Source: Bacteroidia bacterium (GTDB taxonomy: Bacteria > Bacteroidota > Bacteroidia > UKL13-3). Taken from it: DNA of 64,000 nucleotides. The position numbers and the translations under genes were made by a program. The stretch lies in assembly GCA_021740845.1 (NCBI GenBank), contig JAIOYZ010000013.1, positions 1-64,000 on the forward strand. Reading direction: 5' to 3'. The notes under the pieces were generated by a model, which did not search any database, had not been told where the DNA came from, and saw nothing but the letters and a program-made list of their open reading frames with translations. Of this stretch, positions 3,550-8,280 are shown piece after piece; position 1 is the first letter of the stretch; each line of letters begins with the position of its first letter.

Positions 3550-4575
3550 ATGAAGAAAATCCTTGTTACTGGTGGAGCTGGCTATATTGGTTCGCACACC
3601 ATTGTTGAATTATTAAAAGCAGGATACGAAGTGATAGCTATTGATAATTTTGACAACTCCTACCCTAGTGTTTTAGAAAACTTAAAAAAAATTACGGGTC
3701 AGGAAATCCCTTTTGCGGAAGTTGATATTAGAGACAAAGCTGCATTGAAAGCATTTGTAAAAGCTACTCCAGGAATTGACGCTGTTATACATTTTGCTGC
3801 CAACAAAGCGGTTGGCGAAAGTGTTGCCAACCCTTTGAAATATTACGAAAACAATGTGGGTGGAACCGTTAATTTATTAGAAGCCATGCAAGAAAATGGG
3901 ATCAAACAAATTGTTTTTTCTTCTTCTTGTACAGTATACGGTGAAGCTACACCACCTGTTGGAGAAGATGCTCCAATTCCAGTTGCACAATCGCCTTATG
4001 GAAATACCAAACAAATTTGTGAGGAAGTATTAAAAGACCAATGTGTGGCTACCGATTTAAAGGTTGTTGCCTTGAGGTATTTTAATCCAGTTGGAGCACA
4101 TGAATCTGCTTTGATAGGTGAACTACCAATTGGAGTACCTAATAATTTGGTTCCATTTATTACACAAACTGCTATTGGCAAACGCGAGGTTTTAACAGTT
4201 TATGGAGATGATTACCCAACACCAGATGGAACTTGTATAAGAGATTATATTCATGTGGTAGATTTAGCTTTAGCCCACGTTGCTGCTATCAATTATTTGG
4301 CTGAAAAGAAAAATGAAGAAGCATTCTCTGTTTTCAATTTAGGTACAGGACAAGGCAATTCTGTTTTGGAAGTAATTCAAACTTTTGAAAAAGTAACGGG
4401 TGTAAAATTAAACTATAAAATTGGTCCAAGAAGAGCTGGAGATGTGGTTCAAGTTTATGCTTCATGCGATAAAGCAATGAGTGGTTTGGGCTGGAAAACA
4501 GAAAGAAGTTTAGAGGAGTGCATGAGCAGTTCTTGGAAATGGGAACAAGCAATTGCAGCAAAAGGAAATAATTAA
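3550..4575 (+). CDS. galE: UDP-glucose 4-epimerase
   Basis: 341 aa, the usual GalE length. It interconverts UDP-glucose and UDP-galactose and feeds exopolysaccharide and LPS synthesis. The N-terminal NAD-binding motif is GGAGYIGSHT (residues 7-16). The catalytic SDR residues are visible as SSSCTVYG (Ser) and YGNTK (Tyr-x3-Lys, near residue 150). RYFNPVGAH and the GDDYPTPDGTCIRDYIHV block are typical of GalE. It heads the nucleotide-sugar block, and a small antitoxin-like gene starts 10 bp after its stop. Confidence 0.95.
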   Translation: MKKILVTGGAGYIGSHTIVELLKAGYEVIAIDNFDNSYPSVLENLKKITGQEIPFAEVDIRDKAALKAFVKATPGIDAVIHFAANKAVGESVANPLKYYENNVGGTVNLLEAMQENGIKQIVFSSSCTVYGEATPPVGEDAPIPVAQSPYGNTKQICEEVLKDQCVATDLKVVALRYFNPVGAHESALIGELPIGVPNNLVPFITQTAIGKREVLTVYGDDYPTPDGTCIRDYIHVVDLALAHVAAINYLAEKKNEEAFSVFNLGTGQGNSVLEVIQTFEKVTGVKLNYKIGPRRAGDVVQVYASCDKAMSGLGWKTERSLEECMSSSWKWEQAIAAKGNN

Positions 4576-4585
4576 TATTTGAAAA

Positions 4586-4783
4586 ATGCAAACATTTGAG
4601 AAAACACTTGATGAGTTGATGTCTTATGATTTTTCCACTAGAGAACTCATTATTGACATCCTCCAAAAAAGGCAAATTGAGGAAAGACGAAATGAAATTG
4701 CTAAAAATATTAAGGTTTCATCGAGTGATTACAATAAAGGTAAATTAAAATCGCAAAGTGCAAAGGATGCAATATACATATAG
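4586..4783 (+). CDS. Orphan antitoxin-like small protein
   Basis: 65 aa beginning MQTFEKTLDELMSYDF. It has the pattern of small Bacteroidota/cyanobacterial antitoxins of RelE/HigB-type modules: an N-terminal helix, the ILQKRQIEERRNEIA segment, then a KGKLKSQSAKD tail. No toxin gene follows. After the TAG there are only 35 bp to rfbB, and the tail ends earlier than I would expect for the family. I read it as an antitoxin left behind after toxin loss, wedged between galE and rfbB. The family assignment is by remembered resemblance only. Confidence 0.5.
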   Translation: MQTFEKTLDELMSYDFSTRELIIDILQKRQIEERRNEIAKNIKVSSSDYNKGKLKSQSAKDAIYI

Positions 4784-4818
4784 GAACTCACGACGAAGTC
4801 TATTAATAAATTAAACCA

Positions 4819-5874
4819 ATGAATAGAAAAATATTAATCACCGGAGGAGCCGGTTTTATAGGTTCACATGTTGTTAGGTTGTTTGTAAACAAATACCCTG
4901 ATTACCAAATTCACAACTTAGATAAGTTAACCTATGCAGGTAATTTAAAGAACATTACAGATATTGAAAATGCACCTAATTACCATTTCCACCGTGTGGA
5001 TTTGGTTGATGCAAACGCATTAACAGAATTATTTACCGAACATCAATTTGATTCGGTAATACATTTGGCAGCTGAGAGTCATGTAGACAGAAGCATTACT
5101 AACCCATTAGAATTTGTAATGACCAATGTGGTGGGTACTGTTAATTTATTGAATGCCGCTAAAGAATCTTGGAAGGGAAATATGGAAGGAAAACGTTTCT
5201 ATCATGTTTCTACCGACGAAGTTTATGGCAGCTTGCATGATGGAGGTTTCTTTTACGAAAATACCCCTTACGACCCGCAATCACCTTATTCTGCTAGTAA
5301 AGCTAGCTCCGACCATTTTGTAAGAGCCTACCACAATACTTATAAAATTCCAGTTGTAATTAGCAACTGTTCTAATAATTATGGTCCGAACCAATTCCCT
5401 GAAAAGTTAATACCATTATTCATTAATAATATCAGAAACAACAAACCATTGCCTGTTTACGGTAAAGGTGAAAATGTAAGAGATTGGTTGTATGTGGTAG
5501 ATCATGCAAGAGCCATTGATGATGTTTTTCATAAAGGAGCCATTGGTGAAACATACAATATTGGAGGATTTAACGAATGGACTAACCTTGATTTGATAAA
5601 GGTAATTTGCAAAACTGCAGATAGGTTATTGTGCAGAGCAGAAGGTGAATCTGAAAAGTTGATTACCTATGTAACTGATAGAGCTGGTCATGATTTACGT
5701 TATGCGATTGACGCCAATAAAATTATGAAAGATTTGGGCTGGGAACCAAGTTTACAATTTGAGGAAGGCATTGAAAAAACCATCAATTGGTATATTGACA
5801 ATCAGGAGTGGATGGATGAAGTAACTAGCGGAAATTACGCTAATTATTACAATCAAATGTATGGTAGCAGGTAG
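4819..5874 (+). CDS. rfbB: dTDP-glucose 4,6-dehydratase
   Basis: 351 aa, the typical RfbB/RmlB length. It converts dTDP-glucose to dTDP-4-keto-6-deoxyglucose with bound NAD. GGAGFIGSHV is the Rossmann motif (7-16). AAESHVDRSITNP is diagnostic for the dehydratase. HVSTDEVYGSL contains the catalytic Thr-Asp-Glu, and YSASKASSDHFVRAYHNTY carries Tyr-x3-Lys. SNCSNNYGPNQFPEKLIPL is also characteristic. It acts directly after RfbA, whose gene lies downstream beyond the four-helix-bundle cassette. rfbC and rfbD are not in the window. Confidence 0.95.
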   Translation: MNRKILITGGAGFIGSHVVRLFVNKYPDYQIHNLDKLTYAGNLKNITDIENAPNYHFHRVDLVDANALTELFTEHQFDSVIHLAAESHVDRSITNPLEFVMTNVVGTVNLLNAAKESWKGNMEGKRFYHVSTDEVYGSLHDGGFFYENTPYDPQSPYSASKASSDHFVRAYHNTYKIPVVISNCSNNYGPNQFPEKLIPLFINNIRNNKPLPVYGKGENVRDWLYVVDHARAIDDVFHKGAIGETYNIGGFNEWTNLDLIKVICKTADRLLCRAEGESEKLITYVTDRAGHDLRYAIDANKIMKDLGWEPSLQFEEGIEKTINWYIDNQEWMDEVTSGNYANYYNQMYGSR

Positions 5875-5878
5875 GTCA

Positions 5879-5914
5879 TTGGTCTTTAGTCTTTAGTCGT
5901 TAGTCTTTGGTGTT
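5879..5914 (+). repeat. Left inverted-repeat arm of the four-helix-bundle cassette
   Basis: TTGGTCTTTAGTC and further GTCTTTAGTC/GTTAGTCTTTGGT units form a short degenerate iterated stretch 5 bp after the rfbB stop. The reverse complement of the same units lies just beyond the downstream gene (6312-6385), so the pair frames one gene. Confidence 0.7.
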
Positions 5915-5940
5915 AGTAACTGATCTTTTCAGAATGAATT

Positions 5941-6300
5941 GTGCGAAATTTTAGAAAACTAGAAGTTTGGGTAGATGCACTAGACTTAGCAAAAGACGTT
6001 TATAGTTTTAAAGACCAATTACCTAAATCTGAAATTTATGGACTTTCCAGTCAATTATGTAGGGCCGTAGTTTCAATATCATCTAACTTAGCCGAAGGAT
6101 GTTCAAGGAAATCGGAAAAAGAATTTGTACGATTTATAGAAATTGCAATGGGTTCTGCTTTTGAAGTTGAAAGTTTATTAATTTTATCAAAAGAACTTGA
6201 GTTGGCTACTAATTTTGATTACCAACCAATTTCCCTAAAGCTTGAAAAGCTTCAAAAAAAAATCAATGCACTTAGAAATCATTTTGCTAACATTGTTTAG
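5941..6300 (+). CDS. Four-helix-bundle protein (23S rRNA intervening-sequence / S23 family)
   Basis: 119 aa starting at GTG with the family's typical opening MRNFRKLEVWVDALDLAKDVY. It also shows the conserved LSSQLCRAVVSISSNLAEGCSRKSEKEFVRFIEIAMGSAFEVESLL core (residues ~35-85). Members form pentameric all-helical bundles. Relatives are encoded within 23S rRNA intervening sequences, or serve as Avd accessory proteins in diversity-generating retroelements; stand-alone copies like this have no established role. It interrupts rfbB-rfbA and is framed by inverted repeats, which suggests insertion as a unit. The GTG start is chosen because the ATG six bases upstream is out of frame. Confidence 0.85.
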   Translation: MRNFRKLEVWVDALDLAKDVYSFKDQLPKSEIYGLSSQLCRAVVSISSNLAEGCSRKSEKEFVRFIEIAMGSAFEVESLLILSKELELATNFDYQPISLKLEKLQKKINALRNHFANIV

Positions 6301-6311
6301 AAAATATTTAC

Positions 6312-6385
6312 AAAAGACTAATTACCAAAGACCAATTACAAAAGACTAAAGACCAACGACTAAAGACCAATTAACTACCAAAGAC
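6312..6385 (+). repeat. Right inverted-repeat arm of the four-helix-bundle cassette
   Basis: Iterated units (CAAAAGACTAA, ACCAAAGACCAATTACAAAA, GACTAAAGACCAACGACTAA, AGACCAATTAACTACCAAAG) are the reverse complement of the left arm at 5879-5914. At least the 14-mer ATTGGTCTTTAGTC is shared exactly. The arm ends 8 bp before rfbA. Confidence 0.7.
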
Positions 6386-6393
6386 AAAATTAT

Positions 6394-7254
6394 ATGAAAG
6401 GAATCATACTTGCAGGTGGAAGTGGAACTCGCTTACATCCCTTAACCATAGCAGTGAGCAAGCAATTAATGCCTGTTTACGATAAGCCCATGATCTATTA
6501 TCCATTGAGCACACTGATGCTTGCTGGGATTAGGGAAATATTGATTATTTCCACCCCGCATGATTTACCGGGTTTTAAAAAATTATTGGGTGATGGCTCC
6601 CAAATTGGCTGCCGTTTTGAATATGCAGAACAACCTTCTCCAGATGGTTTAGCCCAAGCGTTTATAATTGGAGCTGATTTTATTGGTTCAGACAAAGTAG
6701 CTTTAGTTTTAGGAGATAATATTTTTTATGCTGCCGGTTTGAGCCAACTCTTGCAAAGTAATAACGACCCTGTTGGAGGAGTAGTTTTTGCTTACCACGT
6801 TAACGACCCAGAGCGTTATGGTGTTGTAGAGTTTGATGAAAACATGAAGGCATTGAGTATTGAGGAAAAACCACTTCAACCAAAATCAAGATATGCAGTT
6901 CCGGGTTTGTATTTTTATGATAATAGCATTGTAGAAATAGCCAAAAATATTAAGCCATCTCCAAGAGGCGAATTAGAAATTACTGACGTAAATAAAGTTT
7001 ACCTTGAAGCTGGAAAGTTAAAGGTTGGTGTTCTGCAAAGAGGTACTGCATGGTTAGATACAGGTACTTTTGAATCTCTTATGCAAGCAGGTCAATTTGT
7101 ACAAGTTATTGAAGAACGCCAAGGATGGAAAATTGGTTGTATTGAAGAAATCGCTTACCGTATGGGTTGGTTAGATAAAGACGGGTTGCAGCGTGAAGCC
7201 AAGAAATACCTGAAAAGCGGTTACGGCAAATACCTAATGAATTTGCTTAATTAA
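6394..7254 (+). CDS. rfbA: Glucose-1-phosphate thymidylyltransferase
   Basis: 286 aa, the usual RfbA/RmlA length. It makes dTDP-glucose from glucose-1-phosphate and dTTP, the first step of the dTDP-rhamnose/6-deoxysugar pathway. The N-terminal [17 protein letters not shown] motif binds the nucleotide. [35 protein letters not shown] and LVLGDNIFY (metal-binding Asp) are all typical. It supplies the substrate for RfbB, from which it is separated by the inserted four-helix-bundle gene. Confidence 0.95.
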
Positions 7255-7302
7255 TTATTGGCGAAACAGCCATTTAAAAAGAAATAGAAAAAGAATAAAA
7301 AT

Positions 7303-8280
7303 ATGAATCCTCAACACGAAGCATTAAAGAAGTTTAACTATCAAATAAACTTTGCAATAGACAATTACAGTAACCATGGTTTATCTGCCAATCAATTTTC
7401 AAATATTCTAATTGGTGGTTTAGGTGGAAGTGGTATTGGTGGCAGAATTGTAAAAACCATTTTTATGGATGAGTTTCCAATTCCGGTAGAAGTGGTTGCA
7501 GACTACACTTTACCTGCTTATGTAAACGAAAAAACCTTAGTAATCTTAGGTTCATACAGTGGTAATACCGAAGAAACTTTAGCCATGTATGCCGAGGTTG
7601 AAAAGCGCGGTTGCCAAATGTTAATTCTTACGGCTGGCGGCAAATTAGGTGGATTTGCAAAAGAAAAATCTTTAAAAACATACTTCCTTGAACCAGGTTT
7701 CCAACCACGTATGGCTCTTGGTTTTTCTTTAACTTATTTGGTTCAAATATTTGGCGACCTAATTGGAAAGCCTATGCAAGATGAATTGAAAACAGTTGCT
7801 ACTTTATTTGAAGACAATACTCCTTACTACGATGATGCTGAGCAGGTATTTAATGTAATTCATTCTAAAATGAATTCGAAATTTGTGGTATTAAGTGATG
7901 CTCAATTTGAAGGTGTAGCAACTCGTTTTGCTCAACAAATTCAAGAGAATGCCAAGGCAGAATGTTTTACTCATGTTTTGCCTGAACACAACCACAATGT
8001 AATTGAAAGCTATTACGGAACCTTAGATACTGTTTTCTTTTTCTTAAATACTAACAGCAACCCTAGAGTAGCTGCAAGATTTGAATTCTTAGCTGGTTTG
8101 CTTGAAGTGGAAAACCATAAAATTATTGAAATGGGTGTTGAGCAATTTAATTTAGCAGCAGTTTACCAAACCATTCACCGTTTGGATTGGATTAGTTTAT
8201 TGATAGCAGATGCTAGAAAAGTAGACTCATTAAATGTTCCTAATATTGCTTCTCTTAAAGAGTTTTTAGACAAAGTATAA
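7303..8280 (+). CDS. Bifunctional phosphoglucose/phosphomannose isomerase
   Basis: 325 aa with an N-terminal SIS domain (NILIGGLGGSGIGGRIV at ~35-50; GSYSGNTEETLAMY near residue 85) and the C-terminal PGI/PMI domain. PEHNHNVIESYYG supplies the conserved His/Glu region. The family interconverts fructose-6-phosphate with glucose-6- or mannose-6-phosphate, linking glycolysis to the nucleotide-sugar genes just upstream. The next gene starts 1 bp after its stop, so the two are probably co-translated. Confidence 0.88.
   Translation: MNPQHEALKKFNYQINFAIDNYSNHGLSANQFSNILIGGLGGSGIGGRIVKTIFMDEFPIPVEVVADYTLPAYVNEKTLVILGSYSGNTEETLAMYAEVEKRGCQMLILTAGGKLGGFAKEKSLKTYFLEPGFQPRMALGFSLTYLVQIFGDLIGKPMQDELKTVATLFEDNTPYYDDAEQVFNVIHSKMNSKFVVLSDAQFEGVATRFAQQIQENAKAECFTHVLPEHNHNVIESYYGTLDTVFFFLNTNSNPRVAARFEFLAGLLEVENHKIIEMGVEQFNLAAVYQTIHRLDWISLLIADARKVDSLNVPNIASLKEFLDKV

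Follow-up and report, generated by a model that had tools for sequence, protein, structure and literature searches.

Two bodies of background bear on the locus described here, namely the intervening sequences (IVSs) of rRNA genes with their S23/IVP proteins and the heptameric tandem repeats of bacterial genomes, to which the STRR of cyanobacteria also belong. According to excerpts of PMC4990558, the IVS of Coxiella burnetii has two or three GACAGAT heptamers before the start of S23p and a terminal stem of 28 bp, and is excised by RNase III at a site located at the first repeat (for which that paper also cites others). S23p is reported there as having no known function and is judged probably not to be made in vivo, and a homopentameric ring is cited as the form of a solved S23 relative (PMC4990558, excerpts). 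Heptameric simple sequence repeats (SSRs) are described in excerpts of PMC4692102 as over-represented in many bacterial genomes, with no detailed literature on them available. Examples are GGGAATC in Xanthomonas and GGGGA(C/T)T in Nostoc (PMC4692102) and TAACTGA in Beggiatoaceae (PMC4679880, likewise in excerpts); 70 convergent (inverted) heptamer pairs are given for X. campestris (PMC4692102). Like the arms described below, these SSRs are intergenic 7-nt tandem arrays, some of them in inverted pairs, and the excerpts of both papers contain no link to S23 (PMC4692102, PMC4679880). The text strings 's23' and '23s' do not occur in PMC4692102, nor do '23s' and 'helix bundle' in PMC4679880. Within the titles, abstract starts and passages retrieved from open-licence PubMed Central, no paper linked S23 outside rRNA with heptad arms.

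The window, a stretch of 64,000 nt from a Bacteroidia bacterium (contig JAIOYZ010000013.1), carries an S23 gene between two genes that we take to encode the enzymes named in Table 1; the name rfbB had also been given in a preliminary description of this DNA. That description reported a four-helix-bundle gene splitting rfbB from rfbA, and this was borne out. The ORF in question is the only one between the two host genes. Its match to PF05635 (23S_rRNA_IVP) covers all 106 positions of 106 with an E of 1e-33, and it also matched TIGR02436, four helix bundle protein, with an E of 6e-32. The solved relatives were matched by a profile built from 28 relatives. Avd of diversity-generating retroelements is likewise a four-helix-bundle homopentamer, of a related family. 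The immediate neighbours of the window gene are rfbB and rfbA. An Rfam search of positions 4500-7500 and a PADLOC search gave no match.

Table 1. Features of the rfbB-rfbA region of the window
Feature	Position	Strand	Remark
rfbB-like dTDP-glucose 4,6-dehydratase, upstream host gene	4819..5874	+	left array follows directly after its TAG stop
Left arm, iterated heptads GTCATTG GTCTTTA GTCTTTA GTCGTTA GTCTTTG GTGTTAG	5875..5916	+	RG strand is the sense strand
S23/IVP four-helix-bundle gene, 119 aa, GTG start	5941..6300	+	profile match; solved relatives 2GSC, 2RLD
Right arm, inverted heptads, AAAGACT / AAAGACC / ACGACT words, spacing partly different	6310..6385	-	array inspection
rfbA-like glucose-1-phosphate thymidylyltransferase, downstream host gene	6394..7254	+	ORF call

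The two inverted flanks of an iterated AGTCTTT type, also part of the preliminary description, were found at the window copy as well. A TTAGTCT-type array on the left faces an AAAGACC/AAAGACT-type array on the right, which reaches nearly to the rfbA start. The arms at 5870-5911 and 6338-6379 are 86% complementary over 42 nt (74% over 53 nt), and ATTGGTCTTTAGTC and its reverse complement both occur in the flanks. Compared with its own reverse-complemented right flank, the left flank scored 30, the best of 35 loci; against the right flanks of the other loci the median was 10 and the maximum 17.5. The RNA of 5862-6393 is predicted to fold with the arms paired and the ORF enclosed between them, at a z of -5.78; none of 100 shuffled sequences folded as well. 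The arms are not palindromic hairpins each. One weak palindrome (6296-6315) lies at the edge of the right arm, and the other inverted pairs listed at the locus join separate segments. Terminal inverted repeats, a criterion for MITEs and non-autonomous IS elements, are present, and only S23 lies between the arms, with no Y1 transposase gene there. Inside the S23 ORF, TAAAGACCAATTACCTA at 6009-6025 is 94% complementary to the start of the left arm, which may be chance. Further upstream, between a galE-like gene and rfbB, a 65-aa ORF (4586-4783) had no Pfam or PADLOC match; it is possibly a second small insertion into this operon.

On balance we favour the reading that the window insert is an S23 cassette, an operon counterpart of the 23S rRNA IVS, whose arms would pair in RNA. 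A direct comparison was possible with locus L363, a 23S rRNA gene carrying an insert, which Rfam places in LSU rRNA. It was the only one of 20 S23 loci put to Rfam that lay in rRNA. Its arms (1439-1483 and 1847-1891) are 82% complementary over 45 nt, the predicted fold has a z of -6.27, and the right arm consists of TTCTGTC-type heptads. The C. burnetii IVS and L363 resemble the window locus in having an S23/IVP ORF between inverted repeats that form a long RNA stem, and in heptads at the arms, which in C. burnetii are the GACAGAT copies before the ORF (PMC4990558, excerpts). Thus the kinship with rRNA IVSs, which the preliminary description had based on family membership, goes further, since a 23S IVS is likewise heptad-armed. 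In contrast to the rRNA IVSs, the window copy does not sit in a 16S or 23S rRNA helix and lies, like most loci with neighbours read, between two protein genes; unlike the C. burnetii type, the word differs from copy to copy. The window ORF is intact and comparable S23 sets are under purifying selection, whereas the S23 gene of L363 is a relic with two stop codons.

The genome from which the window comes has five PF05635 matches. Besides the window copy, three copies have iterated-word flanks, each with a different word (GCTTTTA/GCTTCTA type at L001, GGTTTTA type at L003, AAAGATA type at L005), and for each of these left flanks the right flank of the same copy was the best match among 35. Iterated-word flanks are missing from the partial copy L004. 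The window word recurs in arrays elsewhere in this genome, with 71 overlapping matches at up to 2 mismatches vs 1 for the reversed control. Strong arrays were counted in 464 kb (the window, C49:1-220000, C40:1-140000 and C56:15001-55000, picked partly for known array hits). Period 7 was found 20 times, period 14 12 times and period 15 twice, with none at periods 4-6 or 8-13, and all but one of the strong arrays lay away from S23. Among inverted array pairs enclosing an ORF, the window locus scored highest (28), followed by pairs at 18-20 (C49:19319 and 19577 with 19907; short ORFs in tandem repeat) and at 15-16 (C49:217458 and 217638 with 218683; a 274-aa ORF). On contigs C26, C44, C61 and C62 of this genome (G000), heptad words occur within longer tandem arrays spaced at roughly 75 or 83 bp, some of which lie close to the ends of contigs.

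S23 was present in 68 of 78 genomes, this one included, and a single genome had as many as 12 matches, spread over several contigs. For 35 loci, made up of the best copy per genome and the five copies above, left flanks were scored against reverse-complemented right flanks. The median was 19 for the own flank and 9 for other loci; the own flank ranked first at 22 loci and exceeded the 95% cross-locus level at 26, and only periods 7 and 14 were raised. In 61 regions, which share some loci with this set and from which genes closer than 150 nt to a region end were omitted, a score of at least 18 was reached by 26 of 53 S23 loci vs 8 of 877 other genes, some of the latter adjoining S23. A period-7 stretch in either flank was found at 33 of the 53.

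Most of the S23 genes read, which come from Bacteroidota, Gammaproteobacteria, Geobacter, cyanobacterial plasmids and further phyla, are flanked by heptad arrays. The best 80 of 583 candidates sharing a SIPSNIAEG-like motif yielded 76 usable named loci from many phyla (four were omitted), outside Bacteroidota among others from Geobacter, a Clostridia MAG, Thiohalocapsa, Ignavibacteriae and Anaerolineae. Scores of at least 14 were found at 52 of these loci vs 4.9% of cross pairs; period 7 occurred in a flank of 51, and other periods except 14 in at most 9. The sampled class of Thiohalocapsa had S23 in 57 of 274 genomes, 52 of them above the family cut-off. A set of 37 gamma/Geobacter loci (L334 of 38 omitted; eight loci from three genomes reached earlier, three also in the 76-locus set) showed period 7 at 30 and a score of at least 14 at 29, with other periods except 14 at no more than 2. 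From 20 records of cyanobacterial plasmids ten loci were obtained, eight of which had a period-7 stretch in one flank or both, and five an inverted pair of at least 14 (L316, L317, L322 and the near-identical L323 and L324). The arrays of L321 are direct and not inverted. On these plasmids, S23 lies between cas10 and cmr3 (L322), between cas6 and cas4 (L321) and, antisense, between two ribonucleotide reductase genes (L316).

Taken over 164 loci, a period-7 array at a loose cut-off was detected in at least one arm of 124 and in both arms of 74. The preliminary description had read the window gene as a candidate mobile cassette and proposed a search for AGTCTTT repeats beside other family members, with copies lacking such flanks as a refutation. 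Its picture of a gene with its own inverted flanks stood, and inverted heptad flanks occur at many other sites. The AGTCTTT word itself did not carry over and was rejected as a family-wide sequence, since each cassette has its own seven-base word and only RG is common. Against the cassette reading, a sizeable minority of loci have no clear arms (none at L004 and at L277/L327 of Bowmanella), and period-7 stretches also adjoin other genes (113 of the 877). By eye, period 6, 8 or 9 is seen at a small number of loci (L035, L279, L249, L286). Phage carriers of S23 cassettes were looked for and none was found, nor were near-identical S23 copies at two sites of one genome among the fetched multi-copy genomes. 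The best true within-genome pair (L306/L307 of G025) was 78% identical and had no clear heptad arms; a pair at 100% was one locus fetched twice.

Across the 78 genomes, S23 number and array number were correlated (Spearman 0.51, p 1.6e-6, without kinship correction; pattern YTRGNNN x4, overlapping hits counted). The reversed-pattern control was itself high in some genomes (529 hits in G047, 149 in G042, 143 in G051). The idea that S23 alone determines array number was rejected, because G006 has 62 hits without an S23 match and several S23 genomes have no hits. Arrays can thus outlive S23 or do without it.

Other small genes served as controls. GxxExxY (PF13366) loci (L096-L125, e.g. L099, L105, L111, L115, L121) had inverted repeats of at least 14 at 17 of 30, of CACAGAG/CTCTGTG or GCAGATTT type, and a period-7 stretch at 0 of 30. 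One of these genes, L121, lies at the metH junction described below, and L099 does likewise by eye. At GIY-YIG loci a score of at least 14 was reached by 8 of 27, some via a duplicated tRNA or other repeats, and a period-7 stretch was seen at 1 of 27. The small GIY-YIG genes L127, L130, L140 and L141 lie between inverted GTCACCCTGAGCTTGTCGAAGGG- or GGTTGTCATCCTGAGGAACGAAGG-like sequences. Y1 loci of the same genomes, a few of whose ORFs (such as L171 and L172) are possibly in a wrong frame, had inverted flanks of at least 14 at 15 of 27 and a period-7 stretch on one side of a single locus (L164). With flanks of other kinds at all three gene families, heptad arms as a general trait of small stand-alone genes were rejected. 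A further cassette kind was seen at L073:5809-6990, where two copies of a CCCGAAATATGAAAGTTGAACTTTCATATTTCGGG-like hairpin enclose an AAA_14/DUF4143 ATPase gene.

Phase alignment of the arrays revealed a simple grammar. In 89 left arms, one position was G at a mean of 88% and the preceding position A or G at 92%, with the other five free; on the sense strand the left heptad consists of (A/G)G and five bases that vary. The 80 right arms showed the same RG pattern after reverse complementation (86% and 85%). Information content was 2.92 bits (left) and 2.86 bits (right) vs 2.24-2.42 in phase-shuffled controls, and the median arm detected was 35-36 nt, with detection requiring at least 28. Since RG is strand-asymmetric and constant on both arms, we argue that each arm has one strand that is read; the five free bases argue against a classical transposase site. 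In the 74 loci with both arms, the words of the two arms were more similar to each other (own-locus median 0.59) than to those of other loci (0.41), 52 of 74 exceeding the 95% cross level. A word set by the insertion site was rejected, as the words of dissimilar S23 copies at the same junction had a median similarity of 0.42 (64 pairs) vs 0.44 at different junctions (889 pairs; one-sided p 0.94). The word follows the cassette rather than the site. The idea, taken from TAG-rich words, that the arms supply stop codons in all frames was rejected as well, because ACTCGGA (Geobacter) and TTTCTGG (Clostridia MAG) contain none, and G-quadruplex arrays were dropped because many words have single Gs.

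Insertion sites were evaluated for 168 loci (164 distinct proteins), the neighbour being the longest ORF within 600 nt; L002 and the window, L016 and L065@8139, and L004 and L047 are counted twice. Both neighbours were sense with S23 at 135 loci and both opposite at 6. The corresponding counts were 15 and 3 for GxxExxY (n=30), 11 and 1 for Y1 (n=29) and 3 and 4 for GIY-YIG (n=15). Of 144 loci with both neighbours, 68 fell into 14 recurrent junctions, one of which (L004/L047) is one locus twice. By reading of the translations, the leading junctions are metH1|metH2 (13), fadB|fadA (12), fadA|acyl-CoA dehydrogenase (11) and sufB|sufC (6). The fad and suf loci were scattered on a quick S23 tree, whose resolution is poor because the proteins are short. 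In the class of Thiohalocapsa, the cassettes of L332, L352, L355 and L357-L360 lie between a tRNA, confirmed in L352, L355, L357, L359 and L360, and a gene ending in a ...RKRPQFSKR-like sequence, presumably rpsI/uS9.

Occupancy of the rfbB|rfbA junction was followed in 19 genomes of the genus (in 4 of them the piece read does not include rfbB). S23 is present in three, G000, G001 (plus a further ORF) and G012. Eight have a short gap of 13-116 nt without S23, and two of these gaps, long enough for the test, had no period-7 stretch. The empty junctions that the preliminary description suggested looking for thus exist, and its alternative, that all orthologous operons carry the gene, did not hold. 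G004, G007 and G014 have heptad arrays on both sides over 174-201 nt without S23 (inverted score 10-11); their left and right words differ, and they are therefore not clean remnants. A toxin-antitoxin-like pair occupies the site in G009 (by eye).

At metH1|metH2, 30 loci out of 55 genomes with a match were retrieved, of which 8 lacked metH1 in the piece, leaving 22. S23 was found in 15 of them (14 by profile, G369 by motif only) and a CACAGAG-armed insert in 3, two of which (G368 and G022) were confirmed as GxxExxY. In G015 the junction holds a gene-free spacer of 81 nt that contains a hairpin, and the site is empty in G024, G035 and G357 (5-9 nt). The metH1 stop lies inside the array in G000, G034, G043 and G365, and empty sites have another C-terminal end (by eye). 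On a tree of the metH S23 copies, clade A (9 rows, support 93/83) and clade B (10 rows, 100/100) were separated, plus L032; each clade occurs in two genera, and clade B is found in G055 as well, which belongs to a third family-level group. Most clade A loci have GCTTCT-like words and clade B loci AGTCGAT/AGTCCAT-like words. Against this division, the clade A loci L023 (G011) and L030/L384 (G013) carry a clade B word outside their own, where a clade A cassette may have landed in or beside an older B cassette. At L384, three AGACCAT-type copies adjoin the outer side of a GCTTCTGG-type array, which puts two cassette words next to each other. An AU test did not reject one origin of the metH S23 copies (p 0.189). 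Independence at this site thus rests on the clade-specific words and the unrelated GxxExxY cassette. At the rfbB|rfbA and metH junctions examined, no filled and empty pair was close enough for base-exact cassette ends.

These sites bear on an alternative that we consider unlikely, in which S23 is an ordinary resident gene, the arms are local regulatory or transcript-protecting hairpins and the patchiness reflects gene loss. Purifying selection on S23 (median dN/dS 0.12, 0.09 and 0.15 for the three sets compared, at a nearly saturated median dS of 1.5-1.8) favours a resident gene and could mean a host function. The recurrent junctions and the AU result point the same way, as does the finding that orthologue arms from two genera still match each other, with weak or no signs of co-evolution of the arms (own 21.5 vs cross 18.5 in clade A, 20.4 vs 20.2 in clade B). 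However, within one family a single metH site holds two S23 clades, GxxExxY or nothing, and the metH1 end differs between filled and empty sites. The resident-gene explanation also sits poorly with the same architecture in unrelated phyla and in rRNA, and with the many matches per genome on several contigs.

A REP- or MITE-like element moved in trans by Y1 (RAYT) or another transposase appears doubtful to us. The S23 cassette shares with REP/RAYT systems a small gene between inverted repeats and many gene-less repeat relatives in the genome; Y1 genes between inverted repeats have a layout that is the same in form, and the own genome has four Y1 matches. In contrast to REP/RAYT, the S23 cassette has no transposase inside, its arms are period-7 arrays and not a palindrome, and its sequence is free except for RG, leaving the ends without a fixed terminal sequence. 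By eye, the Y1 arms as printed resemble palindromic REPs, and period 7 is almost absent from them. Moreover, by the Y1 profile, S23 genomes without a match include G055 (12 S23), G020 (3), G014 (2), G060 (2) and G009 (1). The suggestion of the preliminary description that a short element had moved in trans is unproven.

It is highly improbable that the arrays are neutral slippage products which S23 adjoins by chance. The own genome has many arrays at a distance from S23, G006 has arrays and no S23, and an excess of heptameric SSRs in bacteria is reported (PMC4692102, excerpts), yet the inverted, word-matched S23 arms stand far above the 877 control genes of the same regions, and the GxxExxY and GIY-YIG loci are nearly free of period-7 stretches at the same cut-off. 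An invertible segment, in which recombination between the arms would switch S23 on and off, has inverted repeats of about 35 nt or more to recommend it but is scarcely credible given the strong sense bias of the insertions and window arms that are only 74-86% complementary over their length.

Returning to the S23 cassette, its unit is a left heptad array, the S23 ORF and an inverted right array, with no other gene, inserted in sense between operon genes. Many phyla and a genuine rRNA IVS show this architecture, and the same sites are occupied patchily. In the polycistronic mRNA the arms would pair into a long stem, and RNase III would cut it, as published for the C. burnetii IVS. Cutting of the stem would shed the insert from the mRNA, which would make it tolerated. 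The TRAP protein reads repeated NAG triplets; in a similar manner, a pentameric S23 ring would recognise the array via (A/G)G every 7 nt. S23 would then act on its own RNA and perhaps also in movement. We infer these steps, namely mRNA excision, a reading of RG by the S23 ring and an involvement of S23 in movement.

More tentatively, S23 cassettes might represent a minimal mobile element class across bacteria, perhaps archaea. Its ends would be set by a strand-asymmetric grammar of RG every seven bases, with the five free bases near-constant within a cassette, and the pentameric S23 ring would read five RG steps on RNA or DNA. The rRNA IVSs would be the subset that landed in rRNA, and the bacterial heptamer excess would largely be gene-less remains. 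Such a repeat family would be defined by period and one dinucleotide and not by sequence. Cassettes lie in metH, sufBC, sdh, hemDE and fad operons (names by reading), and at metH the host gene end is altered. One testable hypothesis would thus join the function of S23/IVP, the spread of rRNA IVSs and the excess of seven-base tandem repeats, and the gene in the window may tie a protein of unexplained role to the unexplained seven-base repeats of bacteria.
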